Assembly: GCF_009389715.1 (NCBI RefSeq)
Contig: NC_052395.1
Location: forward strand, 5,852,812 to 5,916,811
Length of the DNA stretch: 64,000 bases
Direction of reading: 5' to 3'
From: Phoenix dactylifera
Lineage: Eukaryota; Streptophyta; Magnoliopsida; Arecales; Arecaceae
Both the position numbers and the translations under genes were made by a program. The notes under the pieces were generated by a model, which was given only the letters and a program-made list of their open reading frames with translations, made no database searches and was not told where the DNA came from. Shown piece by piece: positions 3,923-52,900 of this stretch. Each line of letters opens with the position of its first letter. Positions within the stretch are counted from its first letter, which is position 1.

Positions 3923-4069
3923 CCAATCTAAATGATAATTTCTGAAAGAACTAGATTAGTCGATTTGATTGAGAGAGAATGCAAGGCTTCCATGAGATAA
4001 AGGAGGGTTAAGGGGGAAGGTACCATCCAAAACCCATTTTATGTACCACCTATACACTACAGGAAAAGG

Positions 4070-4192
4070 TACATTTTCCGACGCTTTTTTCCCGACGCTA
4101 GGAAAAAGCGTCGGGATAGTTTTGATCAGCGCGACGACGCTTTTAAGCGTCGCGGTAAGCTGGACCTACGACGACGCTTATAAGCGTCGTCG
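4070..4192. repeat. Left subterminal repeats of the CACTA element
   Basis: Five or so copies of the CGACGCTT / AAGCGTCG motif in both orientations lie just inside the left terminus, several forming short palindromes such as GACGCTTATAAGCGTC. Subterminal repeats of this kind are the known binding sites of CACTA transposases. Confidence 0.8.
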
Positions 4193-4296
4193 TATGCCAA
4201 ATCCTTTCCAACCCTCTCTGCCTTAAAAAGTCTCGTCTCGTCTCCTCTCCTCTCATTCAAAAGGGTCCCCATCTCCTCTCCTCTCCATCTCACTTC

Positions 4297-4475
4297 CCGA
4301 GCTCCGATCGGCGTCCCCGAGCTCCGATCGCCTCTCCATCTCGCTTCCCGAGCTCCGATCGGCGTCCCCGAGCTCCGATCGCCTCCCCATCTCGCTTCCC
4401 GAGCTCCGATCATCGTCCCCGCGCCGACATCAATCCATCGCCTCCCCATCTCGCTTTCCGAGCTCCGATCGGCTT
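4297..4475 (+). repeat. GC-rich minisatellite inside the CACTA element
   Basis: At least six copies of GAGCTCCGATC lie in about 180 bases, linked by CTCCCCATCTCGCTTCCC or GGCGTCCCC spacers. The block lies between the left subterminal repeats and the captured gene, next to a pyrimidine-rich stretch that looks like a plant 5' UTR and first intron ending TTGGTGATTGCAG at 4649. Confidence 0.75.
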
Positions 4476-4671
4476 CCCGCGCCGACATTAATCCATCGCC
4501 TCCCCATCTCGCTTCCCCGCCACCGTCGACCTCGCCCTCCGGTTTCCTTCTTCTTCTCTCGTTTCTTGCATTTTTTGCTCTTGGCTCTAGTATTTTGTGT
4601 TGATTTTTGGGGGTTTTTTCTGATCCCTTTCCTTTCTTGGTGATTGCAGGTGCTTCCGGGATAGTTTAATA

Positions 4672-5605
4672 TCCAGTCAAGAAGACTGCAATGGCTTTAG
4701 GAGAAGCCCTGTTTGATGAAGAGCTCGGCAAACCTATAGGGCAGATTGTTGCCGTATGCGGCCGCAACCAGATACTGAGTTCCACATTGCAGTCAATTAA
4801 GTGGAGGGTCCCTGTGAAGGTGGTGTAGCTGGTCTGAGATAATAATTAACAAGCCTGCATTGTTGGTACATTTTAAGCTTTTGTTTGTTGAGAGCTGTTC
4901 AATATTGCCTTTGTTGTCAGATTAGAGGATTTGAGACCCAGATGGAGAAATGGATGGGTGCTTGTGATTGTATCATAACAAAGGTACCATGGTTTCCTAG
5001 ATGTCCAGATCAGTCTGCTAAGGAGTTTTTTTTCAGATGGCTTCAATGTGCTCTCGTGTTTGTAGGCAGGGCCTGGTACAATTGCTGAGGCATTGATCAG
5101 GGGACTTCCTATCATCCTCAATGACTTCATACCTGGACAGGTCAGTGTCTACTCCCTACTGTCCTGCCATCTCTGTTTCATTCCAACCTCATTAAGTGCC
5201 CATTGACATGTTCTCCATTAAAAGGGCTATATGCCATAGCTAGGCCTCTTATTCAAACTACTGGTTGTAGTCTGAATCAACAAGATTGGTGTTTAGTTAG
5301 CTGCCATGTTCTAAGTGCATGGAGAACTGTAACAAGACTGGTATTTACAGAATGAAGCTATTTCCATCCAAAGAAAAAAAGAAAAAAAGAAAGAAAATGA
5401 AGTTATGGATGATGTATCATGATGCATGAATCTCTACACAAGTGTGTGCATGCATATCTGTATCTCCAACTTCATAAAAACCAAAGTACAAGACCATCTG
5501 CATTTACTCCTTGGAAATATGACTCTGGCCTTGGGTCTCATTCTGGTCTTGCAGGAGGTTGGCAATATCCCATATGTAGTAGACAATGGAGCTGGAGCTG
5601 GACTC
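4672..5605 (+). pseudogene. Captured fragment of an MGDG synthase gene (four exons, three introns)
   Basis: Four exon blocks encode contiguous pieces of the monogalactosyldiacylglycerol synthase catalytic domain (GT28 family, chloroplast envelope galactolipid synthesis). Exon a (4672-4819) reads [20 protein letters not shown] and CGRNQILSS; exon b (4921-4983) reads RGFETQMEKWMGACDCIITK; exon c (5066-5140) reads [20 protein letters not shown]; exon d (5555-~5600) reads EVGNIPYVVDNGAG. Each is bounded by GT and AG, and exons b and c are whole codon multiples. The best match by recognition is the type-A enzyme MGD1. Introns are present, so the fragment was taken from genomic DNA, not from mRNA. 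The N-terminal domain and the end of the catalytic domain are missing, so it cannot make active enzyme. Confidence 0.88.
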
Positions 5606-6237
5606 TTGGCGCTTCCGTGATTGCAGGTGCCTCCGGTTCCGACTTCACAAATTACATATAGATAGTTTAATATGTTTGATGTGTAAGCAAGGTAATCAAA
5701 AATACCTTATTATATATGATGAGACAGTAATTGTACAATATATTCTTTTTCTTTCCCTATGTTAACTAGATATTTACATCAGAAAGAAAAACTTTAACCA
5801 GATATTGGCCTTCATTATTCCTAAAGAGTCCTATATACATCTCAAATCATAAGTTCGAAGGGGCATCTTTCAAAGTTATGATTATTACATATTTTGCTAT
5901 TTTTCAGGGGGCAAGGCATGAAAAGCTTACTCAGAAACTTAGAATTATTATTATGCTACTTCGGAAGGAAGTTATTGAAATGGCCTAGCTGCCAAATAGA
6001 TATCCACTTGCTATGAAAATAATTGCATTTTAATTTCTGCATGACAGCAATTTGTTATATTAATCTCATCATATAAGCTTGTCTTTCAAATTATAGGAAA
6101 GGAAGCATAAGTGATTCGGCATAAAGTTTTAACTTCTTTGACTTTTTGTAAAACAATAAGCTGCAAGATAACTCATGTATATATGTATTTTGACCTTTAT
6201 AATTTACATTCGTATTTTTATTTTTTTTAAAAAATAG

Positions 6238-6612
6238 CAATCCCGACGCTTTAAAGCGTCGGCCAAAATACATTTGCCGACGCTTTAAAGCGTCGGCGAA
6301 AACGCAAAACTGGTTAGTCTATATCGACGCTTTAAAGCGTCGGGAAATCTGTTTTTTCCGACGCTTTAAAGCGTCGGGAAATCTGTTTTTCCCGACGCTT
6401 TAAAGCGTCGACGAAAACGCAAACTGGATTGGGCTTTATCGACGCTTTAAAGCGTCGGTAAAGCCGTTTTTGCCGACGCGGCAAATCCATATTTTTGCCG
6501 ACGCTTTCTCTTAGCGTCGGCAAAAACCGGACCCACGCCCACCTGCCCGACGTCTGACCCACGCTTTGGATCGCGTGGGTTGGAAATTCGCCGACGCTTA
6601 TAAGCGTCGGTA
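6238..6612. repeat. Right subterminal palindromic repeat array of the CACTA element
   Basis: About ten copies of the perfect palindrome GACGCTTTAAAGCGTC and close variants lie within 375 bp, separated by short AT-rich or AAAACGC spacers. The array is richer and more uniform than the left side, an asymmetry common in CACTA elements. Each unit could form a small hairpin. Confidence 0.88.
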
Positions 6613-6658
6613 GAGACAAAAAAAAGCGCCGGGAGTTATTCCTTCTTTTGTAGTGATA

Positions 6659-10402: not shown

Positions 10403-10450
10403 TTAGATGAGTTGACGGAAATCGGGCCCAAGGTGGTGGTGAATCAAGAA

Positions 10451-10481
<31 letters not shown>

Positions 10482-12101
10482 CCTCCGTCGTAGACTGCGG
10501 CGCCGCCGGCTTGGAGGAGTTGCTGCGGCTGCAGCTGGAGTTCTTTCTGGCGGCGGAGCTCGAGGACCTTACGGTGGGAGTTGGAGTGCTTGGAGAGCAC
10601 GAAGGTGGGGCTCGCCGCTGGCCGATACTCCGGCACGAGCCGGCCGGACTTGTAGCGGACCCCGCAAGCGTTGCACAGCGTCTTGGGGCCCATCGGTCCC
10701 GTCCGCCATTGCGGCGTCTTCTCGGTGGCGCAGTGGAGGCACTTCCGCCCGTCCGGCGCCGGCGCCACCGCGGGTCCCGCCGACGGGTCCTTCTTCTTCG
10801 CCGGCTTCGCCGCCGCCTTCTTCTCGGAGAAGTTTCCCGCCGGCACGATCAGCCCCGACTCCGCCGACGAAGCCGTCGTCGTCGGAGACAACTCCGGGAG
10901 CCTCGACGACCAGCTAGAAGGGGCAGCGCGGGACCGCTTGCTTCGGGCCTTGCCAGGGACGGGTGCCTCGGCCCGGACGAGGGCGGGCTGGGCAGCGCAG
11001 CCGGCGGCACCGTCGCCGGCAGTGGCGGAAACCTCCGCCGCGTTCTCCGACGCGGGGGAGGAGGACTTGATTCCAGAGATGAGTTGCAGCTTCTGGAGGT
11101 CTTCGCTGGAGAAGGACTCCTCCACGAAATTGGAGAGCCATTCGAGCTCGGCTATTTCCTCGTACTGTGGACAAAAATGATAAAAACAATTAGAATTGGG
11201 AAGCTTTCCCTTCATCTAACTTTCCTTTTCTGGACAGTCCGAAAACCCCCGAATTCTATTTCCGAGAAGATGCTGCAGCCGGGTGTTTCCTTTCCTTCCT
11301 TCCTCTTCTTGCAGTTTAGTGCGTTTTTCGTCGTTTTTTTTTTGTTCGAATTAAAACTGAATTGAATTAAGACAAGGAAGGGAAGAATTGCACTAATTTA
11401 AAAAATTTCCCGGTAATTTAATACTCAGAGACAACGGTTTCCTATAAATTAAGAAAAGTACATCATAAAGGATTTAAAATTTAAAATTGGCCAATCCAGA
11501 GAAAAAGTGATCACCTAAATTTTTTAAAAAAGTCGAGGAAATAAAGAATAAGGAGGCAATGATACATATAAACTACTACAATTTGGGGAAAAATCGTATT
11601 TTTCGTAAAAACAATCTGTTCTTTTGCTTGGAAAATTACTATAAAGTATGAATTAAAGACAAAAGGAGAAATAAACAGTGATTATGAAAACAGAAATGGG
11701 GAAATTTATCAGAAAAACTTAATTTATGGTTCCGGGCCTGCGGCCTGTCGGGGCGGAGGTGGAATTACCGGCTCGTAGAGATCGCCAGAGAGTCTGGCGT
11801 CGGCGAAGCTCCGGCAAACGAGGTCACGGGCGAAATGCGGGTCAGAGCCGGAGAATGAGTTGCTGCAGCTGTCCACGGCGGTGACGGTGGAGGAGTCCGT
11901 GGAGTTCCCAGCCACGGGGTCGAAGCCTGCGTCATCCCCTCCGACCGCCATCCCGACCTTGTCCTCCTCCTCGTTCGAGAAGTCCAGAAGCTCCTCCACC
12001 ATGAAATGCTCCCCCCCTCCGCTGCCGGCCTTCTTCTCCGGCGCGAATTGGGGGGTCCCCGCCCTGTAGTAACCTCCATGCAAGTACTCCGGCGCCTCCA
12101 T
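10403..12101 (-). CDS. GATA-type zinc-finger transcription factor (GATA9/12-like), two exons
   Basis: Exon 1 is 12101-11769 and exon 2 is 11164-10403; the intron has a GT donor (CCG|GTAATT) and an AG acceptor (CCACAG|TACGAG), both phase 0. The joined protein is 364 residues. It starts [12 protein letters not shown], has an acidic [14 protein letters not shown] segment, and reads [21 protein letters not shown] across the junction, a hallmark of subfamily I plant GATA factors. A basic GKARSKRSR patch (about 182-190) is a likely nuclear signal. The finger is C-x2-C-x18-C-x2-C (Cys 253, 256, 275, 278) with [20 protein letters not shown], and should bind WGATAR sites. An Ala/Asp run precedes the conserved C-terminal [12 protein letters not shown]. 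Plant class I GATA factors act in light, nitrogen and growth control. The closest paralogue cannot be fixed by eye. Confidence 0.95.
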
Positions 12102-14800: not shown

Positions 14801-15676
14801 GGGTGGTTCTATATACGCCCCCCCTATTGCTCAGACACCCCCCAAAAATTAAAAAAAAATTAAATACTCTCTACACCCCCCCATTTGCTAAGGACACCCC
14901 TAAAAAATTAAAAATTCCTAAATTACCCCCCACCCTCCCCACCCCCTCACCTAAATTGCTCTCTACACCCCCCAAACCCCCCCCACCCCGCTCTTCCCCT
15001 CCAAAACACCTCGCCAACGCCCAAAACCCCCCCGTTCCTCCTTCTCCCTCTCGTCGCCGGCATTCTCCCGATCTCCGACCACCTCGCCGGCTTCTCCCGG
15101 AACCACCTCGCCGGCTTCTCCCGAAATTTTTTTTTTCACGGTTCGTGCTCCGTTCGGCACTGGATCGCCGAACAAAAGGCTTCTGTTCGGCTGAACAGTG
15201 CCGGACAGAAGCCTTCTGTTCGGCACTGTGCAGCCGAACATATCTGTTCGGTTGAGGGTTGCCGAACAGAAGGCTTCTGTTCGGCACTGTTCAGCCGAAC
15301 AGAAGCCTTTTGTTCGGCGATCCAGTGCCGAACGGAGCACGAACCGTGAAAAAAAAAAAATTTCGAAACAAGGTGGAACACGTACCTTTGTGGCCGATTC
15401 TTCGTCCCAAATCACTAGTTGCTTGTCCATGCTTCGAATGGGGCTTAAATCTCCTTCAAAGATCGCCTAAACGATGTAAATGGATCGAGGGGTTTAAGGG
15501 GGGTTTGAGGGGTGTTTTTTTTTTTCTTTTCAAAACGAAACGGAGGAGGAGGAAGGGGGGTGTATGAGAAAATTTCAAGGGCAATATGGTAATTACACTA
15601 AAGGTTAGTTTGGGTATTTTATTTTGGTTTTTGGGGGGTGTCCTTAGCAATAGGGGGGGTGTATATAGAACCACCC
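14801..15676. mobile_element. Non-autonomous Mutator-like element (copy 2), possible Pack-MULE
   Basis: It has the same termini as copy 1 (GGGTGGTTCTATATACGCC at the left; the right end mirrors it, ending GAACCACCC at 15676). The flanking 9-mers GAGGACTAG (14792-14800) and GAGGACTAC (15677-15685) match at 8 of 9 positions. The inside differs from copy 1: it contains a long hairpin (15122-15365) and, to its right on the minus strand, an exon-like start (ATG at 15430, MDKQLVIWDEESATK, then a GTACGT donor-like site), possibly captured from a host gene. No transposase is present. Confidence 0.85.
15122..15365. repeat. Long near-perfect inverted repeat (hairpin) inside MULE copy 2
   Basis: The left arm (15122 to about 15226) and right arm (about 15258-15365) are reverse complements over roughly 100 bases with one or two differences, around a ~30-base centre. 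Each arm itself carries repeats of GTTCGGC / GCCGAAC and GAACAGAAGCC / GGCTTCTGTTC, so smaller hairpins nest inside. The outer ends are CGAAATTTTTTTTTT and its complement. If transcribed it would give a long double-stranded RNA. Confidence 0.92.
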
Positions 15677-22679: not shown

Positions 22680-24011
22680 TAATGAAGTCTTCTGATTGGT
22701 GGTATAATTTTGGTGCAACGGTTCATGTGTGCAATGACAAGTCTAAGTTCAAAGACTATGAAGATTTGTCATAAGGAGAGAAGCTTCTGATGGGTAATCA
22801 TGACACTGCAAAGGTCGTTGGAAAAGGAACTATTGAACTGCAACTTACTTCTAAAAAAAATTAATTCTTACTAATGTTCATCATTTTTCGGACATTAGAA
22901 ACAATCTGGTTTCTGAAAGTCTTCTCTGCAAGAAGGGTCTCAAAGTTGTAATAGAGGCTGGAAAATTAATTATTTCTAAGAGTGGTGTATTTATTGGACA
23001 AGGATATGCTTGTGATGGAATGTTCAAGCTTAGTATTAATAAAGTGAATGTTTCTGCTTATATTGTTGATTCATCATTTTCTTTATGCATTATCGTTTAG
23101 CACATCTGAATTTTAGATCATTAAAGTTTATGTTCAATCATGGTTAAATTTCTTATTCTGATCATAGTGATAAAAGGTGTGAAACTTGCATTCAAGCAAA
23201 GATGGCTAAGAAACCTTTTTCTAAGAATGAAAGAACTACTAATATTCTTGAACTAATTCATTCTGATATTTGTGAATTGAATGGACTTATAACTAGAGGA
23301 GGAAATAGGTACTTTATCACATTCATAGACAATTCTTCTAGGTATACTGTTGTATATTTAATGAAATCAAAAGATCAAGTTTTCGACATGTTTAAGAGTT
23401 ATAAGGCTATGGTGGAAAATCAACAAGAGAAGAAGATTAAAACTCTATGTAGTGATAAAAGTGGGGAATATTTCTCTAATGATTTTTCTGATTTTTGTGA
23501 AGAACATGGTATAATTCATCAAACTAGTGCACCATATACCCCACAACACAACGGATTGGCCGAAAGGAAAAACCGAATGCTTGTAGAGATGGTAAATACC
23601 ATGCTCCTACATGCCAAGTTGCAAACTAACTTATGGAGAGAGGCTTTGTTAACGGCTTGTCATGTGCATAATCGCATTCCCTCAAGAAAAATGAAAGAGT
23701 CTCTGTATGAAAGATGGAGAGAAAAGAAGCCTAATTTAGGTTATTTGAGTGTATGGTGTTGCATAGCTTATTACAGAATTTCAGATCCTAAAAGAATAAA
23801 GTTAGGTCCTAGAGCTCTCAAAATTATATTTGTGGGATATGCAGAAAACTCTAAGGCTTATAGGTTATTGGATATTGACTCAAACGTAATTGTTGAGTCT
23901 AGAGATGTTGAATTTATTGAAACAAGTTTTCTTAACGATTCAAATGTCAATCTAACACCCATGGTTATACAGGATAGTAATGAGCTTTTATACCACAAGA
24001 TACAAGTTTAG
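22680..24011 (+). CDS. protease and integrase region of the Ty1-copia element (broken)
   Basis: A protease-like segment begins near 22690. The integrase core lies at about 23200-23700, with HSDICELNG, FITFIDNSSRYTVVYLM and TSAPYTPQHNGLAERKNR, the familiar copia DDE integrase blocks. It is followed by the GKSx-type C-terminal region (ALKIIFVGYAENSKAYRLL). Confidence 0.85.
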
Positions 24012-24022
24012 ACCCTAGTTCT

Positions 24023-25723
24023 TTGGTTAACAATAAAAGGAAAGCACTTGACCCTCCTAGTGAACCTAGGAGAAGTCAAAGAGCTAGAAAGAAGAAGAAC
24101 TTAGGTGATGATTTTATATCTTCACAAGCTATAGTATTTTTAGTCGAAGGGAGTAGAGATATCGTGCTTAATAAAATACCAATAATCATGCATGTTGAGG
24201 AAGATCCTAAAACGTATACAGAAGCTATGGCGTCTGGAGACTCTGCTTTCTGGAAAGAAGCAATCAATGATGAAATGAATTCTTTGTTATCCAACAATAC
24301 ATGGGTGTTGGTGGATTTACCTCTTGGTTCTATACCCATTGGTTGTAAATGGATCTTTAGACGGAAATACAATACCGATGGATCCTTGCAGACCTTTAAG
24401 GCAAGGTTAGTAGCCAAGGGCTTTAAGCAAAGTGAAGGTGTTGATTATTTCGACACATATGCTCCGGTGGCAAGAATAACTTCTATTAGAATTTTATTTG
24501 CTTTAGCATCAATTTATAATTTGTATATCCATCAAATGGATGTTAAAACAACATTTATAAATAGTGATTTAGATGAGGAGGTTTATATGGAGTAGCCTGA
24601 AGGTTTTGTGTTACCTGAAAATAAGAAGAAGGTTTGCAAATTGGTTAAATCGTTGTATAGTTTGATACAAGCACCAAAACAGTGGCATGAAAAATTTGAT
24701 TCAGTGATCTTGTCCCATGGTTTTAGCCACAATAGTGTGGATAAGTGTGTTTATTCAAAGTTTACTAAAGAATATGGTGTGATTATATGTCTTTATGTTG
24801 ATGATATGTTAATCATTGGGACCAACATGAAAGGAGTAAGTGAAACTAGGAAGTATTTAACTTCTCAATTCAAAATGAAGGAACTGGGAGAAGTTGATAC
24901 TATCTTGGGAATCAAAGTTAAGAAACATAGTGGGGGTTATGCTTTATGCCAGTCTCATTACATTGAGAAGTTGCTAACTAAATTTAATCATTTAGGTATA
25001 AAAGAATTTAATACACCCCTAGATGTTTCAAACAAGTTGGTTGAGAATTCAGGTAGGTCTACTAGTCAAATTGATTATGCAAGTACCATTGGCAGCTTAA
25101 TGTATGCCATGCATTACACTAGGCCGGATATTGCTTTTGCAGTTTGCAAACTCTCAAGGTTTACTCACAACCCTTGCACTGGATATTGGAAAGCTATAGG
25201 AAGAGTTCTTGGATATCTTAAAAGGACTAAATCCTATGGGTTATTCTATAATCAGTTTCCTAGGGTGTTAAAGGGTTATACTGATGCTAGTTGGATTACT
25301 AGCATTAGTGACAACAACTCTACGTCTGGTTGGATCTTCACTTTAGGTGAAGGAGTTGTCTCATGGAATCTAACTTATTCCACAATGGAATCTAAGTTTA
25401 TAGCTTTAGCGGCAGTAGGCAAAGAAGTAGAATGGCTAAGAAATTTGTTGTTAGATATAAAGTTGTGGCCACAACTGATGCTAGCGATTTCTTTGCATTG
25501 TGATAGTGAAGCAATAATGTCTAGAGCTTTTAGCAAGATTTATAACGGCAAGTCTAGACACATTAGTTTAAGACACGAGTACGTAAGGCAACTTATATCT
25601 GAGGGGATCATAATAGTTGTCTATATAAGATCCAGTAATAATTTGGCTGACCCATTAGCCAAAGGACTCTCGAGAGATATGATTAGGAAAACTGCCATAG
25701 GTATGGGTCTAAAGTCATTTTAA
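24023..25723 (+). CDS. reverse transcriptase and RNase H region of the Ty1-copia element (broken)
   Basis: RT blocks include GCKWIFRRKYNTDGS, RLVAKGFKQ, VDYFDTYAPVARI and the catalytic box LYVDDMLIIG. RNase H follows, with YTDASW and FIALAAVGKEVEWLRNLL, ending near 25723. This is the copia C-terminal arrangement. Confidence 0.9.
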
Positions 25724-27664: not shown

Positions 27665-29050
27665 ATGTATTCGCCTCACTCTCTCTTCTCTCGGCACCCC
27701 AATACCCCCAAACCCAACCCATCCTCCCTTATTCTCCCCCTCTTCAACCAAATCCAAACCCAAACCCCCTCCCCAGAATGCCATTACAACCGAGCCACAG
27801 CCTTGGCAACCCAACTCGAGTCCTGCGCCGGCCCATCCGAGCTCGCCCCAATCCACGCCTACGTCCTCCGCCGCCACCTCCTCCTCGCCCCCTTCCATTG
27901 GAACGCCCTCATGCGCTCCTACCTCCGCCACGCCCGCCCCCTCCGCGCCCTCCTCCTCTTCGCCCAAATGTCCTCCTCCGGCGCCACCCCCGACTCTTAC
28001 TCCCTCCCCATCGCCCTCAAAGCCGCCTCCCAGACGTTTTCTCTTTCCTCCGGCCGCCAGCTCCACACCGCCACCGTCAAGCTCGGCCTCGAGTTCAATG
28101 AGTTCTGCGAGAGCGGCCTCATCAGCATCTACGCCAAAACCGGCGAGTTCGAGTCTGCCCTCAAGATGTTCGACCAAAATCCCCAACGAAAGCTCGGCTC
28201 CTGGAACGCCATCATAGGCGGCCTCGCCCAAGGCGGCCGCTTGGCCGAGGCTATTGACATGTTCATCAAGCTAAGGCGAGCCAGTTTGGTCCCGGACGAC
28301 GTGACCATGGTCAGCGTCGCCTCGGCTTGCGGCGGGTTGGGCGACCTCAACCTAGCCCAACAGGTCCACAAATGTGTCCTCCAAGCCCAAAATTTAGGCA
28401 GACTCGACGTTATGGTGTGCAATTCCTTGGTGGACATGTATTCCAAGTGTGGACGGACGGATTTGGCTTATCAGGTTTTCCGCAGGGTGACGCCGAAGAA
28501 CGTAGCAACGTGGACGGCTATGATCATGGGTCTGGCGACGCACGGGAAGGTGGGTCCCGCGCTGGAGTTTTTCAAGGCGATGAGGGAGGAGGGGGTGAAG
28601 CCGAATCACGTGACGATGGTTGGCGTGCTGTGCGCGTGCGCGCATGGAGGGAGAATAGAGGAGGGAATGAGGTATTTGAATGGTATGGCAAGGGAGTGGG
28701 GGGTGGAGCCAACAGTGGCGCATTATGGTTGTGTGGCGGATATGCTGGGGAAGGTAGGGAGGCTGGCGGAGGCGCGGACGGTGGTGGAGAATATGCCGGT
28801 GGCAGCGAACGCGGTGGTGTGGGGGACGCTGCTGGGGGCAAGCGAGAAGCACGGTGATGCCGAGGTGGGGGAGTGGGCGGCGGGGAAGCTGCTGGAGCTC
28901 GAGCCGTGGAATGATGGGGTGTACGTAGTGCTGTCGAATATTTATGCGGGGAAGGGGATGTGGGGGGAGGTGGAGAGGTTGAGGAGGTTGATGAGGAAGA
29001 GGAGGGTGGCAAAGACGCCAGGGTATAGCTTGGCAGCCATGTCAGCTTGA
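27665..29050 (+). CDS. Pentatricopeptide repeat protein, PLS class with E motifs (At1g77170-like), intronless
   Basis: A single 461-codon frame. After a Pro/Ser-rich N-terminus that could be an organelle targeting peptide come PPR units: HWNALMRSYLRH (~80), FCESGLISIYAKTGEFESAL (~145), SWNAIIGGLAQGGRLAEAI (~180), CNSLVDMYSKCGRTDLAYQV (~255), TWTAMIMGLATHGKVGPAL (~285), then VTMVGVLCACAHGGRIEEGM and HYGCVADMLGKVGRL. The C-terminus has the E region (VVWGTLLGASEKHGDAE, LEPWNDGVYVVLSNIYAGKG) and ends KTPGYSLAAMSA without a DYW domain. Such proteins bind organellar RNA, often for C-to-U editing. The length and the LEPWNDGVYVVL block fit the Arabidopsis protein At1g77170, annotated mitochondrial. 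Codon use shifts from C-ending in the 5' half to G-ending in the 3' half. The ATG at 27665 opens the frame. Confidence 0.93.
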   Translation: MYSPHSLFSRHPNTPKPNPSSLILPLFNQIQTQTPSPECHYNRATALATQLESCAGPSELAPIHAYVLRRHLLLAPFHWNALMRSYLRHARPLRALLLFAQMSSSGATPDSYSLPIALKAASQTFSLSSGRQLHTATVKLGLEFNEFCESGLISIYAKTGEFESALKMFDQNPQRKLGSWNAIIGGLAQGGRLAEAIDMFIKLRRASLVPDDVTMVSVASACGGLGDLNLAQQVHKCVLQAQNLGRLDVMVCNSLVDMYSKCGRTDLAYQVFRRVTPKNVATWTAMIMGLATHGKVGPALEFFKAMREEGVKPNHVTMVGVLCACAHGGRIEEGMRYLNGMAREWGVEPTVAHYGCVADMLGKVGRLAEARTVVENMPVAANAVVWGTLLGASEKHGDAEVGEWAAGKLLELEPWNDGVYVVLSNIYAGKGMWGEVERLRRLMRKRRVAKTPGYSLAAMSA

Positions 29051-51199: not shown

Positions 51200-52900
51200 A
51201 ATCCTTTGTCTCCTACCTCGTTTGGGGGATACCCGAGGCTTCGGCCTTGGTGGCTTTCAAAGCCCCCTTCAAATCTGAAAGAAATCTAAACTTTTCTTTT
51301 TATTCATCTTTACTACGATCGAGAAGAGATGTCAACCCTACTTGTGTAGGCGCTGCAGTTGCCTCTCTTGGCTATGCTCTCGCCTGGGATGGCTCTCTTC
51401 CCACTCTGGGACCATTTTCCAACGGCGCTATGACGGTGGCGGACCTCGAACATGCCTCCCTTGCAATCCACGCACGCCTCACGTGCCGGCCAAGCCCATC
51501 TCTTCACCTCCGAGCGTCGGAGAAATAGAGAGGGAAGATAGGGAATCCCTAACTCCCAATCTTAAAGAGGGAAGATAGGGAATCCTTAAGTCCCCATCCT
51601 CTCTTTGATCTGATTCCACCCCACAAATCTGTCCATTGCTTCAAGTTCTCTACGGATCCTTGGTAGCGTAGTCTATGATCGCCGGTACTTCCTCCTTCAC
51701 CGAAAAGATCGGCAACGGCAACGAGCTCGACGACAACGAGACCGAGAAGGCTGACCTGACGTACACCACCGTGGCCGCCGTTGCGGTCTTCAAACGCCCG
51801 CACCGATCTACTTTGGGACCATCTCAGCGTCCGGCCTCATCCTCCCTGTCTTGAACATCGCCGCCGCCGTCGGCTTCCTGAACGTTTCCAGCGGCTCCCC
51901 TCACTTCAGGATTGTCACCTACCCCGCCGCGGGGCGTTTTCCTTCACTAGTCTTGGCCGGCTTGACAGAGCCCTCCCGCTGCTTCCCTGGTTGATCCATC
52001 CAGGTCCCTCTACCGTTCGATTTGGGGTTCTCTCAATCGTAGAAGCCGTTGTTTCTTCGTTCTCTTCTCGATTTCCCCGATATAAGTGCTGGTTCAGAGG
52101 ATCCTCGGATGCGCCATGGCTACAGGCGATTCTGCTCAAGCGATGGCGATCTAGTAAGCGCGAGTTCCAATCCTCCACAGCCTCGTCGGACGAGGACATG
52201 TCGACGCCATCGGAGATGAGGAAGTTAAGCTCTTTGAGCACCCGCTTCCGGTGCTCCTGTTCTTCCATGTCAGTAACCTCCTCCATAGCCTCGTCGAGCG
52301 AGGACACGTCGGCGCCATCGAAGATGAGGAAGTTAAGCTCCTTGAGCATCCGCTTCTGGTGCTCCTATTCCTCCGTATCGCTGACCTCCTCCACAGTCTC
52401 GTCGGGCGAGAACACGCTGGCGCCACCGAAGATAAGGAAGTTAAGCTCCTTAAACACCCGCTTCCGGTGGTTCTATTCCTCCGTGTCGATGACCTCCTCC
52501 ATAGCCGTGTCGGGCGAGGACATGCCGGTGCCACTAGAGATGCGGGAATTAAACTCCCTAAGCACCCACTTCCGATGCTCCTATTCCTCCATGTCGGGCA
52601 AGGACACGCCGACACAACCGAAGATGAGAGAGTTAAGCACCTTGAGCACCCACTTCTGGTTCTCTTATTCCTCCGTCGAGGCGGCAGGCGACGCCACCCA
52701 AGAGAAGCCCTAGAGGTTGGTGGTGGTGGCCATGAAGGCCTCCATCAGAGGCGATGTCGTCAGTCTACAAGTTCATCTAAAGCACGGTAGTCCTCAAACT
52801 CCGTCACATCAAGAACCGGCCGGCAGGGTAACCGCGGTATCCTCAACTCCGGGACGGGACCAAAGCTACCTTAGGCTTCTTCATCATCAAGTTTGAGGTC
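51200..52900. pseudogene. GC-rich gene-like remnant of unknown family
   Basis: A GC-rich island in AT-rich surroundings. Part of it (51675-51960, plus strand) reads like protein in two frames: IAGTSSFTEKIGNGNELDDN and TYTTVAAVAVF, then, one frame over, YFGTISASGLILPVLNIAAA and GFLNVSSGSPHFRIVTYPAA. This looks like a frame-shifted old coding region. The longest plus frame here (51781-52713) starts at TTG, not ATG. The right part is the minisatellite described separately. I do not recognise the family. Confidence 0.4.
52175..52675. repeat. 108-bp coding-phase minisatellite, five copies
   Basis: ATGAGGAAGTTAAGCTC and variants begin at 52216, 52324, 52432, 52540 and 52624; spacings are 108, 108, 108 and 84, all multiples of three. 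On the minus strand a unit reads EHRKRVLKELNFLISDGVDM followed by SSSDEAVE, a plausible charged repeat, but some units contain stops in that frame. On the plus strand two frames stay open. Which strand was coding is not settled. Confidence 0.75.

Follow-up and report, generated by a model that had tools for sequence, protein, structure and literature searches.

How plant DNA transposons acquire host genes is still debated, and several described systems bear on the question. In soybean, the CACTA element Tgm-Express1 carries pieces of five host genes with both exons and introns kept, and chimeric transcripts have been proven for it, as described in excerpts of the report (PMC1947982); nowhere does the text of that paper use the word 'filler'. 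The Pack-CACTA and Pack-TYPE elements of rice, maize and Arabidopsis likewise combine CACTA ends and captured coding DNA with several copies and modular relatives, and the portion of the published account at hand favours the fusion of neighbouring insertions as their origin (PMC8903248). For gap-filled animal Pack-TIRs, the available sections describe capture by template switching during repair, microhomology at the breakpoints and the growth of multicopy families by later transposition (PMC8277862). At transposon excision sites in rice, foreign filler of 1-123 bp occurs at breaks, with synthesis-dependent strand annealing given as one route in the available part of that study (PMC4423477). 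Finally, a 2026 review describes, in the sections at hand, neighbour fusion and allows that another, undiscovered mechanism may exist for unlinked genes (PMC13317346). The literature searched, in which few subscription papers were covered, held no account of the date palm element described below or of filler from the opposite side at Pack-CACTA seams. Within that literature, no related paper was found for MGDG synthase together with CACTA, judged by the listing, and no transposon gene capture for Phoenix dactylifera together with CACTA among the matches listed, judged by titles.

The window, a 64,000-nucleotide stretch of date palm DNA (C4:5852812-5916811), contains a 2,601-bp CACTA-type element whose bases are numbered W1-2601 from window position 4055 (Table 1). 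A CACTA element carrying DNA of an MGDG synthase (MGD) gene is real at this place, and the termini, subterminal palindromes and flanking ATA duplication of the original prediction were all confirmed by the sequence and by motif counts. Its CACTACA...TGTAGTG ends are inverted to each other, the match being the first 7 bases, and the 8-bp subterminal motif CGACGCTT / AAGCGTCG occurs 11 + 10 times within the element and nowhere in the remaining 61.4 kb of the window. Inverted CACTA ends, a 3-bp duplication and repeated subterminal motifs place the element in the CACTA (En/Spm) superfamily. Host pieces from an MGD gene and from the neighbourhood of a kinase gene lie between these ends in several copies, as in Pack-CACTA elements, with no match to a transposase family in the 10 of 33 element ORFs (ORFs of at least 40 aa) that were scanned. 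This date palm transposon belongs to the non-autonomous CACTA (Pack-CACTA) elements, a kind already known, and is an unusually legible example. Like Tgm-Express1, it holds several host-gene pieces with exons and introns kept, from two host genes here as opposed to five in the soybean element (PMC1947982, in excerpt).

Table 1. Features of the element and its immediate borders (window coordinates; element coordinates, with W, in brackets)
Feature	Position	Strand	Remark
Target site duplication ATA, left	4052..4054	.	seen in sequence
Left terminal inverted repeat (TIR) CACTACAGGAAAAGG	4055..4069	+	
Left arm A: TIR, subterminal palindromes, C/T-rich leader with 51-bp repeats	4055..4660	+	
Left subterminal palindromes (CGACGCTT...AAGCGTCG)	4079..4194	.	
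Putative 3' splice-site-like GTGATTGCAG at arm A end	4640..4649	+	
13-bp filler GATAGTTTAATAT	4660..4672	+	identical to 5661-5673 in kinase piece
Captured type B MGDG synthase genomic segment, 925 bp	4672..5596 (W618-1542)	+	nearest gene on C7 (L019:5083-6078)
MGD exon piece 1, 5' part of exon missing	4673..4819	+	
MGD exon 2 of fragment, whole	4921..4983	+	
MGD exon 3 of fragment, whole	5066..5140	+	
MGD exon piece 4, 3' part missing	5555..5596	+	
44-bp patchwork filler: GCTGGACT (MGD), CTCTTGGCGCTTC, GTGATTGCAGGTGC, CCTCCGGTTCC (arm A)	5597..5640	+	
Second captured host piece, downstream of receptor-like-kinase-like gene	5641..6177 (W1587-2123)	+	copies on C4 (22.6-23.9 Mb) and C319
Right arm with subterminal palindromes	6178..6655	+	common to L016-L018, L032
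Right terminal inverted repeat, sequence ending CTTCTTTTGTAGTG	6642..6655	-	
Target site duplication ATA, right	6656..6658	.	seen in sequence

Relatives were sought in the element's own assembly (773,078,369 bases, 2,391 contigs). With the whole element as query, 40 of the 1,544 first-look candidates were scored, so that the relatives counted are a lower bound, and at least eight matches to the whole element were found in that sample (W1-2601, in one case W78-2601; 93-100% identity). The MGD piece, for which all 16 of 16 first-look candidates were scored, was found at 16 places: eight copies of the element structure, three of the first 542 bp of the piece, two loci on C7, and three distant MGD matches on C22 and at C1:36.26 Mb and C1:21.39 Mb (71-79% identity, with an additional 53-base row at 85% on C22). 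Exact 3-bp duplications flank seven of the seven copies of the element with both ends covered (ATA, TAT, TTT and TAA once each, CTA in three). The eight copies represent five distinct sites, not eight, because three of them (L010, L011 and L012) have both flanks in common and the right flank of a fourth (L015) is nearly the same as theirs. Separate 3-bp duplications at separate sites mean that the element is mobile. The mobile family that had been predicted was therefore found, with the same structure elsewhere in the genome and its own 3-bp duplication at each site, and an origin as a degraded local gene, the outcome named as contrary to that prediction, is excluded by copies of the whole structure at other sites.

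The four copies with common or nearly common flanks lie on small contigs (C1925, C1007, C2294 and C1316) and look like one insertion, so these contigs are probably duplicates or haplotigs within the assembly. Another copy, L014 (C14:20539715-20542368), sits next to AAGCGTCG motifs, its site apparently lying inside the subterminal repeats of another CACTA element. Over the MGD and kinase pieces, divergence is 0.4-0.5% among the window copy (W), L009, L010 and L013, and 1.2-1.4% between these four and L014; L015 differs from the other copies except L014 by 0.8-1.2%, and from L014 by 2.0%.

Compared with the parent gene, the MGD piece comprises two whole and two partial exons and three introns, blocks 1 and 4 being cut inside exons. 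Joined, the four exon blocks give 116 codons with no stop, the final 7 of them falling in filler past 5596. Over residues 1-109 the product matches A. thaliana MGD1 (4wyi, E 5.7e-46), and in Pfam the fragment has a hit to PF04101 (E 3.7e-8). GT...AG is kept in all three introns. The piece is collinear, introns included, with the nearest gene, L019, except for ~72 bp absent from intron 3, a loss seen in 5 of the 5 copies aligned (W, L009, L010, L013, L014). Identity to the parent is 98% over the first 607 bp; the exons differ from L019 by 4 bases, all synonymous (a fifth differing codon was already filler and was left out of the count), and the introns at 19 of 596 positions (3.2%). Much of the original account of this piece stands, namely four exon blocks in order with their splice borders and capture at the DNA level, as the collinear introns attest, and the genome search that it had proposed located the parent on C7. 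A retro-copy (processed pseudogene) is excluded by the three introns and their collinearity with the gene. The homology had been drawn to 5605; it ends at 5596, where the filler begins. The parent had also been taken for a gene essential to thylakoid lipids; judged by residue identity, it belongs to type B, nearer MGD2/MGD3 than MGD1, the piece being identical to date palm P0242 (MGD synthase 2 isoform X2) at 109/109 residues and to Arabidopsis MGD1 (4wyi) at only 69/109, which excludes a type A MGD. On C7, L019 and L020 (C7:7733082-7734077 and 7783113-7784111) are MGD2-like loci ~50 kb apart with 2 differences in 994 aligned bases, and L020 has single-base indels in exons; the pair is either a recent tandem duplication or an assembly artefact.

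Capture from a single gene had been supposed, and here the account has to be extended, since a second host piece follows the MGD segment. It matches 7 listed places on C4 and 1 on C319, and at four of four loci examined among these eight (L023, L024 and L028 on C4, L025 on C319) a reading frame like the C-terminal end of a receptor-like kinase stops ~100 bp upstream of the match, the frame being broken in L024. Against PDB, the L028 frame matched LysM receptor-like kinase 3 (E 1.7e-4) and BAK1 (E 4.5e-4), and the kinase C-terminal piece gave no Pfam match. The receptor-kinase identity of these frames also leans on what we take to be kinase motifs. From its neighbours, we take the second piece to come from downstream of a receptor-kinase-like gene and to lie in sense orientation; its interpretation as CACTA-internal sequence was dropped once kinase-like frames were seen upstream at four loci.

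Both seams of the MGD piece are nearly unchanged in several copies, which makes the mechanism of capture readable and countable. The left seam runs from arm A through the 13-bp filler GATAGTTTAATAT into MGD, and this filler has a single occurrence in the kinase piece, on the far side of the MGD DNA. When 13-mers were simulated from the dinucleotides of the kinase piece, none of 5000 matched the piece in full and 2 of 5000 matched over at least 12 bases. A rival source exists for this filler inside arm A, where GGGATAGTTT, 10 bases overlapping the left filler and the end of arm A, recurs near the arm's start. The right seam runs from MGD through 44 bp into the kinase piece, and three words of its filler, CTCTTGGCGCTTC, GTGATTGCAGGTGC and CCTCCGGTTCC, are found in arm A of a related element, L021, at 575, 640 and 533. 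Together, 8-mers of L021 arm A and MGD cover 43 of the 44 bases; under a Markov null the mean cover is 8.9 and the maximum 39, with 43 reached in 0/3000, and the maximum among 578 control stretches of the same length from the window is 32. Cover is likewise 43/44 with arm A of L009, L010, L013, L014, L021 and L022 (0/1000 null each), 36/44 with W's own arm A (0/1000 null) and 17, at chance level, with that of L026 (162/1000 null). Four other copies of the element keep all three source words, of which two are gone from W's own arm. An account of the seams as element sequence duplicated on either side of an inserted MGD piece was dropped, the right filler consisting of three separated arm A words and not of one unbroken copy.

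Searched genome-wide, the left-junction pattern occurs at 10 places, seven in the element structure and three in the elements L016-L018 (reversed control 0), and the right-junction pattern at 6 places, all in the element structure (control 0). These patterns miss some copies, the left one that on C2294, the right one those on C14 and C1316, and the kinase-to-right-arm pattern that on C14; L014, the C14 copy, differs by single bases at its right junction. The pattern search found no intermediate that has this right junction but lacks MGD.

Since the filler at each seam appears to be copied from the opposite side, template switching is favoured over the fusion of neighbouring transposons; filler of this sort at both seams is what broken ends that switched templates would be expected to leave. 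A break-repair origin by template switching, followed by transposition to at least five sites, is the preferred reading, at a probability of roughly 0.75. The process would have started with a double-strand gap in an element with arm A on its left and the kinase-downstream DNA and common right arm on its right. The gap would have been healed by template-switching synthesis (synthesis-dependent strand annealing or polymerase-theta-type end joining), in which the broken ends took short copies of each other, together with ~1 kb from an MGDG synthase gene of type B with its introns, and were then joined. A transposase acting in trans would then have carried the finished element to five or more sites, each of which gained a separate 3-bp duplication, and a 0.6-kb part (arm A end, left filler and 542 bp of MGD) would later have been taken up by a second CACTA element that has a different left arm. 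Such a course resembles that of the animal Pack-TIRs, in capture by template switching during repair and in multicopy families by later transposition, and differs in its multi-piece filler from the opposite side as against breakpoint microhomology (PMC8277862, available sections). Foreign filler at breaks is shared with the rice excision sites, but here it lies inside a surviving mobile element, beside a 925-bp capture (PMC4423477, available part). With Pack-TYPE elements the date palm transposon shares CACTA ends, captured coding DNA, several copies and modular relatives, whereas its seams favour template switching over the fusion preferred there (PMC8903248, portion at hand).

Some observations count against the break-repair origin. 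The arms of W and of L026 cover the right filler incompletely, the left filler has its rival source in arm A, and the kinase and MGD pieces are unequally distant from their hosts, which is unexpected for one event with both assembled donors. More than one order of captures would fit, because L032 (on C155) has the kinase-to-right-arm junction with only 95 bp of kinase DNA and a different left part. The kinase piece differs from C319 at 2 of 466 positions (0.4%), against the 19 of 596 intron positions for MGD and C7 (Fisher P 0.001, for a contrast chosen post hoc and with several host copies of the kinase DNA to pick from). Were an unconstrained element branch to account for half of the MGD divergence, the exons should show ~4 amino-acid changes, and 0 are seen (P 0.018; P 0.13 if the share of that branch is a quarter, 0.45 if a tenth). 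No closer MGD copy than C7 was found in the assembly (16 of 16 candidates scored). The unequal distances of the two pieces from their hosts and the synonymous-only exon differences both fit a working MGD donor different from the assembled gene, and on this evidence the true donor may be absent from the assembly. It is tempting to suggest, at somewhat less than even odds, that one break-repair episode built the whole unit of leader, exons and downstream DNA, with a functional allele or paralogue outside the reference, for example from another Phoenix lineage, as donor. If so, the element would be the fossil of a missing MGD gene copy, and its seams would record the assembly base by base.

Among five copies of the element, mutations are unevenly spread, being commoner at C/G positions of the arms than of the MGD piece. 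Changes at C/G positions reach 2.1% at CG in arm A and 4.0% at CG in the right arm; in the MGD piece they are 0.2-0.3% at CHH and CHG and 0 at 10 CG positions, and in the kinase piece 1.5% at CHH. Methylation-driven decay may explain part of this pattern, and it is not the whole explanation, because A/T positions are also raised in the right arm (1.1% vs 0.3-0.4%). Whether the MGD piece is silenced cannot be gauged from the mutation pattern.

Parts of the element recur in related CACTA elements, and arm comparisons indicate that its left and right parts differ in origin. W1-606 or parts of it occur in L021, L022, L026, L027 and L029-L031, which carry other cargo. L021 holds a piece of a membrane transport protein (PF03547, 4e-11), presumably PIN-like, and L029/L030 a quinolinate phosphoribosyltransferase (PF02749, 8e-8). 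A different CACTA element with another left arm is represented by L016-L018 (~3.8 kb in L016 and L018), in which the arm A end and the left filler are present along with 542 bp of MGD that match W exactly, and the kinase piece is lacking; L016 has an additional HpcH/HpaI aldolase piece (PF03328, 3e-7). The identical 542 bp and the same left filler make one capture the most likely source of the MGD DNA in both element types, and if the filler derives from the kinase piece, the stretch in L016-L018 would have come from a W-type element. L032 combines its 95 bp from the kinase piece with a right arm of the common type that is interrupted by ~590 bp, and its left part matches none of the arms compared. 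Matched 3-bp duplications were found for L016, L018, L021, L022, L031 and L032; in L029/L030 the duplications at the ends found do not match. Pfam searches gave no match for 6 of 8 peptides (the kinase piece included) and for 2 of 3 in a second set. The seam test applied above is applicable to the relatives carrying membrane transport, quinolinate phosphoribosyltransferase and HpcH/HpaI aldolase pieces.

Such modular exchange bears on the fusion model (Catoni; Gisby and Catoni), under which two related CACTA elements inserted on either side of MGD DNA and, once their inner ends were gone, transposed together with the DNA between them. Arm A and the right arm each also occur with other partners, as that model would have it; examples of fusion are given in PMC8903248, which proposes it, in the portion at hand, for all superfamilies studied there; and inner deletions could also heal with filler, so that filler alone does not exclude it. 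Fusion does not, however, predict seams filled from a side ~1 kb away across the MGD stretch, and the kinase copies lie on C4 and C319 but the MGD gene on C7. For the date palm element it appears unlikely.

As to function, the most likely biological effect is none beyond the dispersal of pseudogene pieces. A chimeric transcript from the element is possible, by its layout, because the leader, the MGD exons and the kinase-downstream DNA point the same way and arm A ends in a splice-site-like sequence. A working chimeric gene, in which the arm A leader, the MGD exons read from an internal, in-frame ATG (110 codons) and the kinase-downstream DNA would yield a truncated protein or regulatory RNA, is decidedly unlikely. 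Its parts do stand in sense order with splice borders intact, W165-606 is without ATG, all four exon differences from the parent are synonymous, and in the excerpts on Tgm-Express1 exons can be spliced into transcripts (PMC1947982). However, a dinucleotide model gives P ~0.095 for the missing ATG, and the ATG-free leader was rejected as proof of a gene on that account; moreover, the exons of L014 carry several one-base insertions, the N-terminal domain is missing from the fragment, and a functional donor other than C7 also explains the synonymous differences. Silencing of the parent MGD gene by element-derived small RNAs, for which the near-identity to the parent could be cited, is highly improbable given a type B parent that in Arabidopsis is not thylakoid-essential, and the lesser C-to-T change among copies in the MGD piece than in the arms, with only 10 CG positions, carries little weight either way. 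The element does not point to a thylakoid-lipid effect.

Elsewhere in the window, a GATA zinc finger transcription factor frame (PF00320, 6.9e-15) lies at 10403-11215 on the minus strand. Pieces of a Copia-type retrotransposon occupy 23202-25723 (+), with an integrase core (rve) and an RVT_2 reverse transcriptase in separate frames, and a PPR protein is encoded in one open frame at 27665-29050 (+), one relative matching it at 91% and Musa at 66%. At 52171-52596, inside a long open frame that matched nothing in Pfam, there is a 108-bp tandem repeat (3.9 copies). Finally, a 33-bp tandem repeat at 15167-15333 is present in 5.2 copies, and its consensus holds the near-palindrome GCCGAACAGAAGCCTTCTGTTCGGC.
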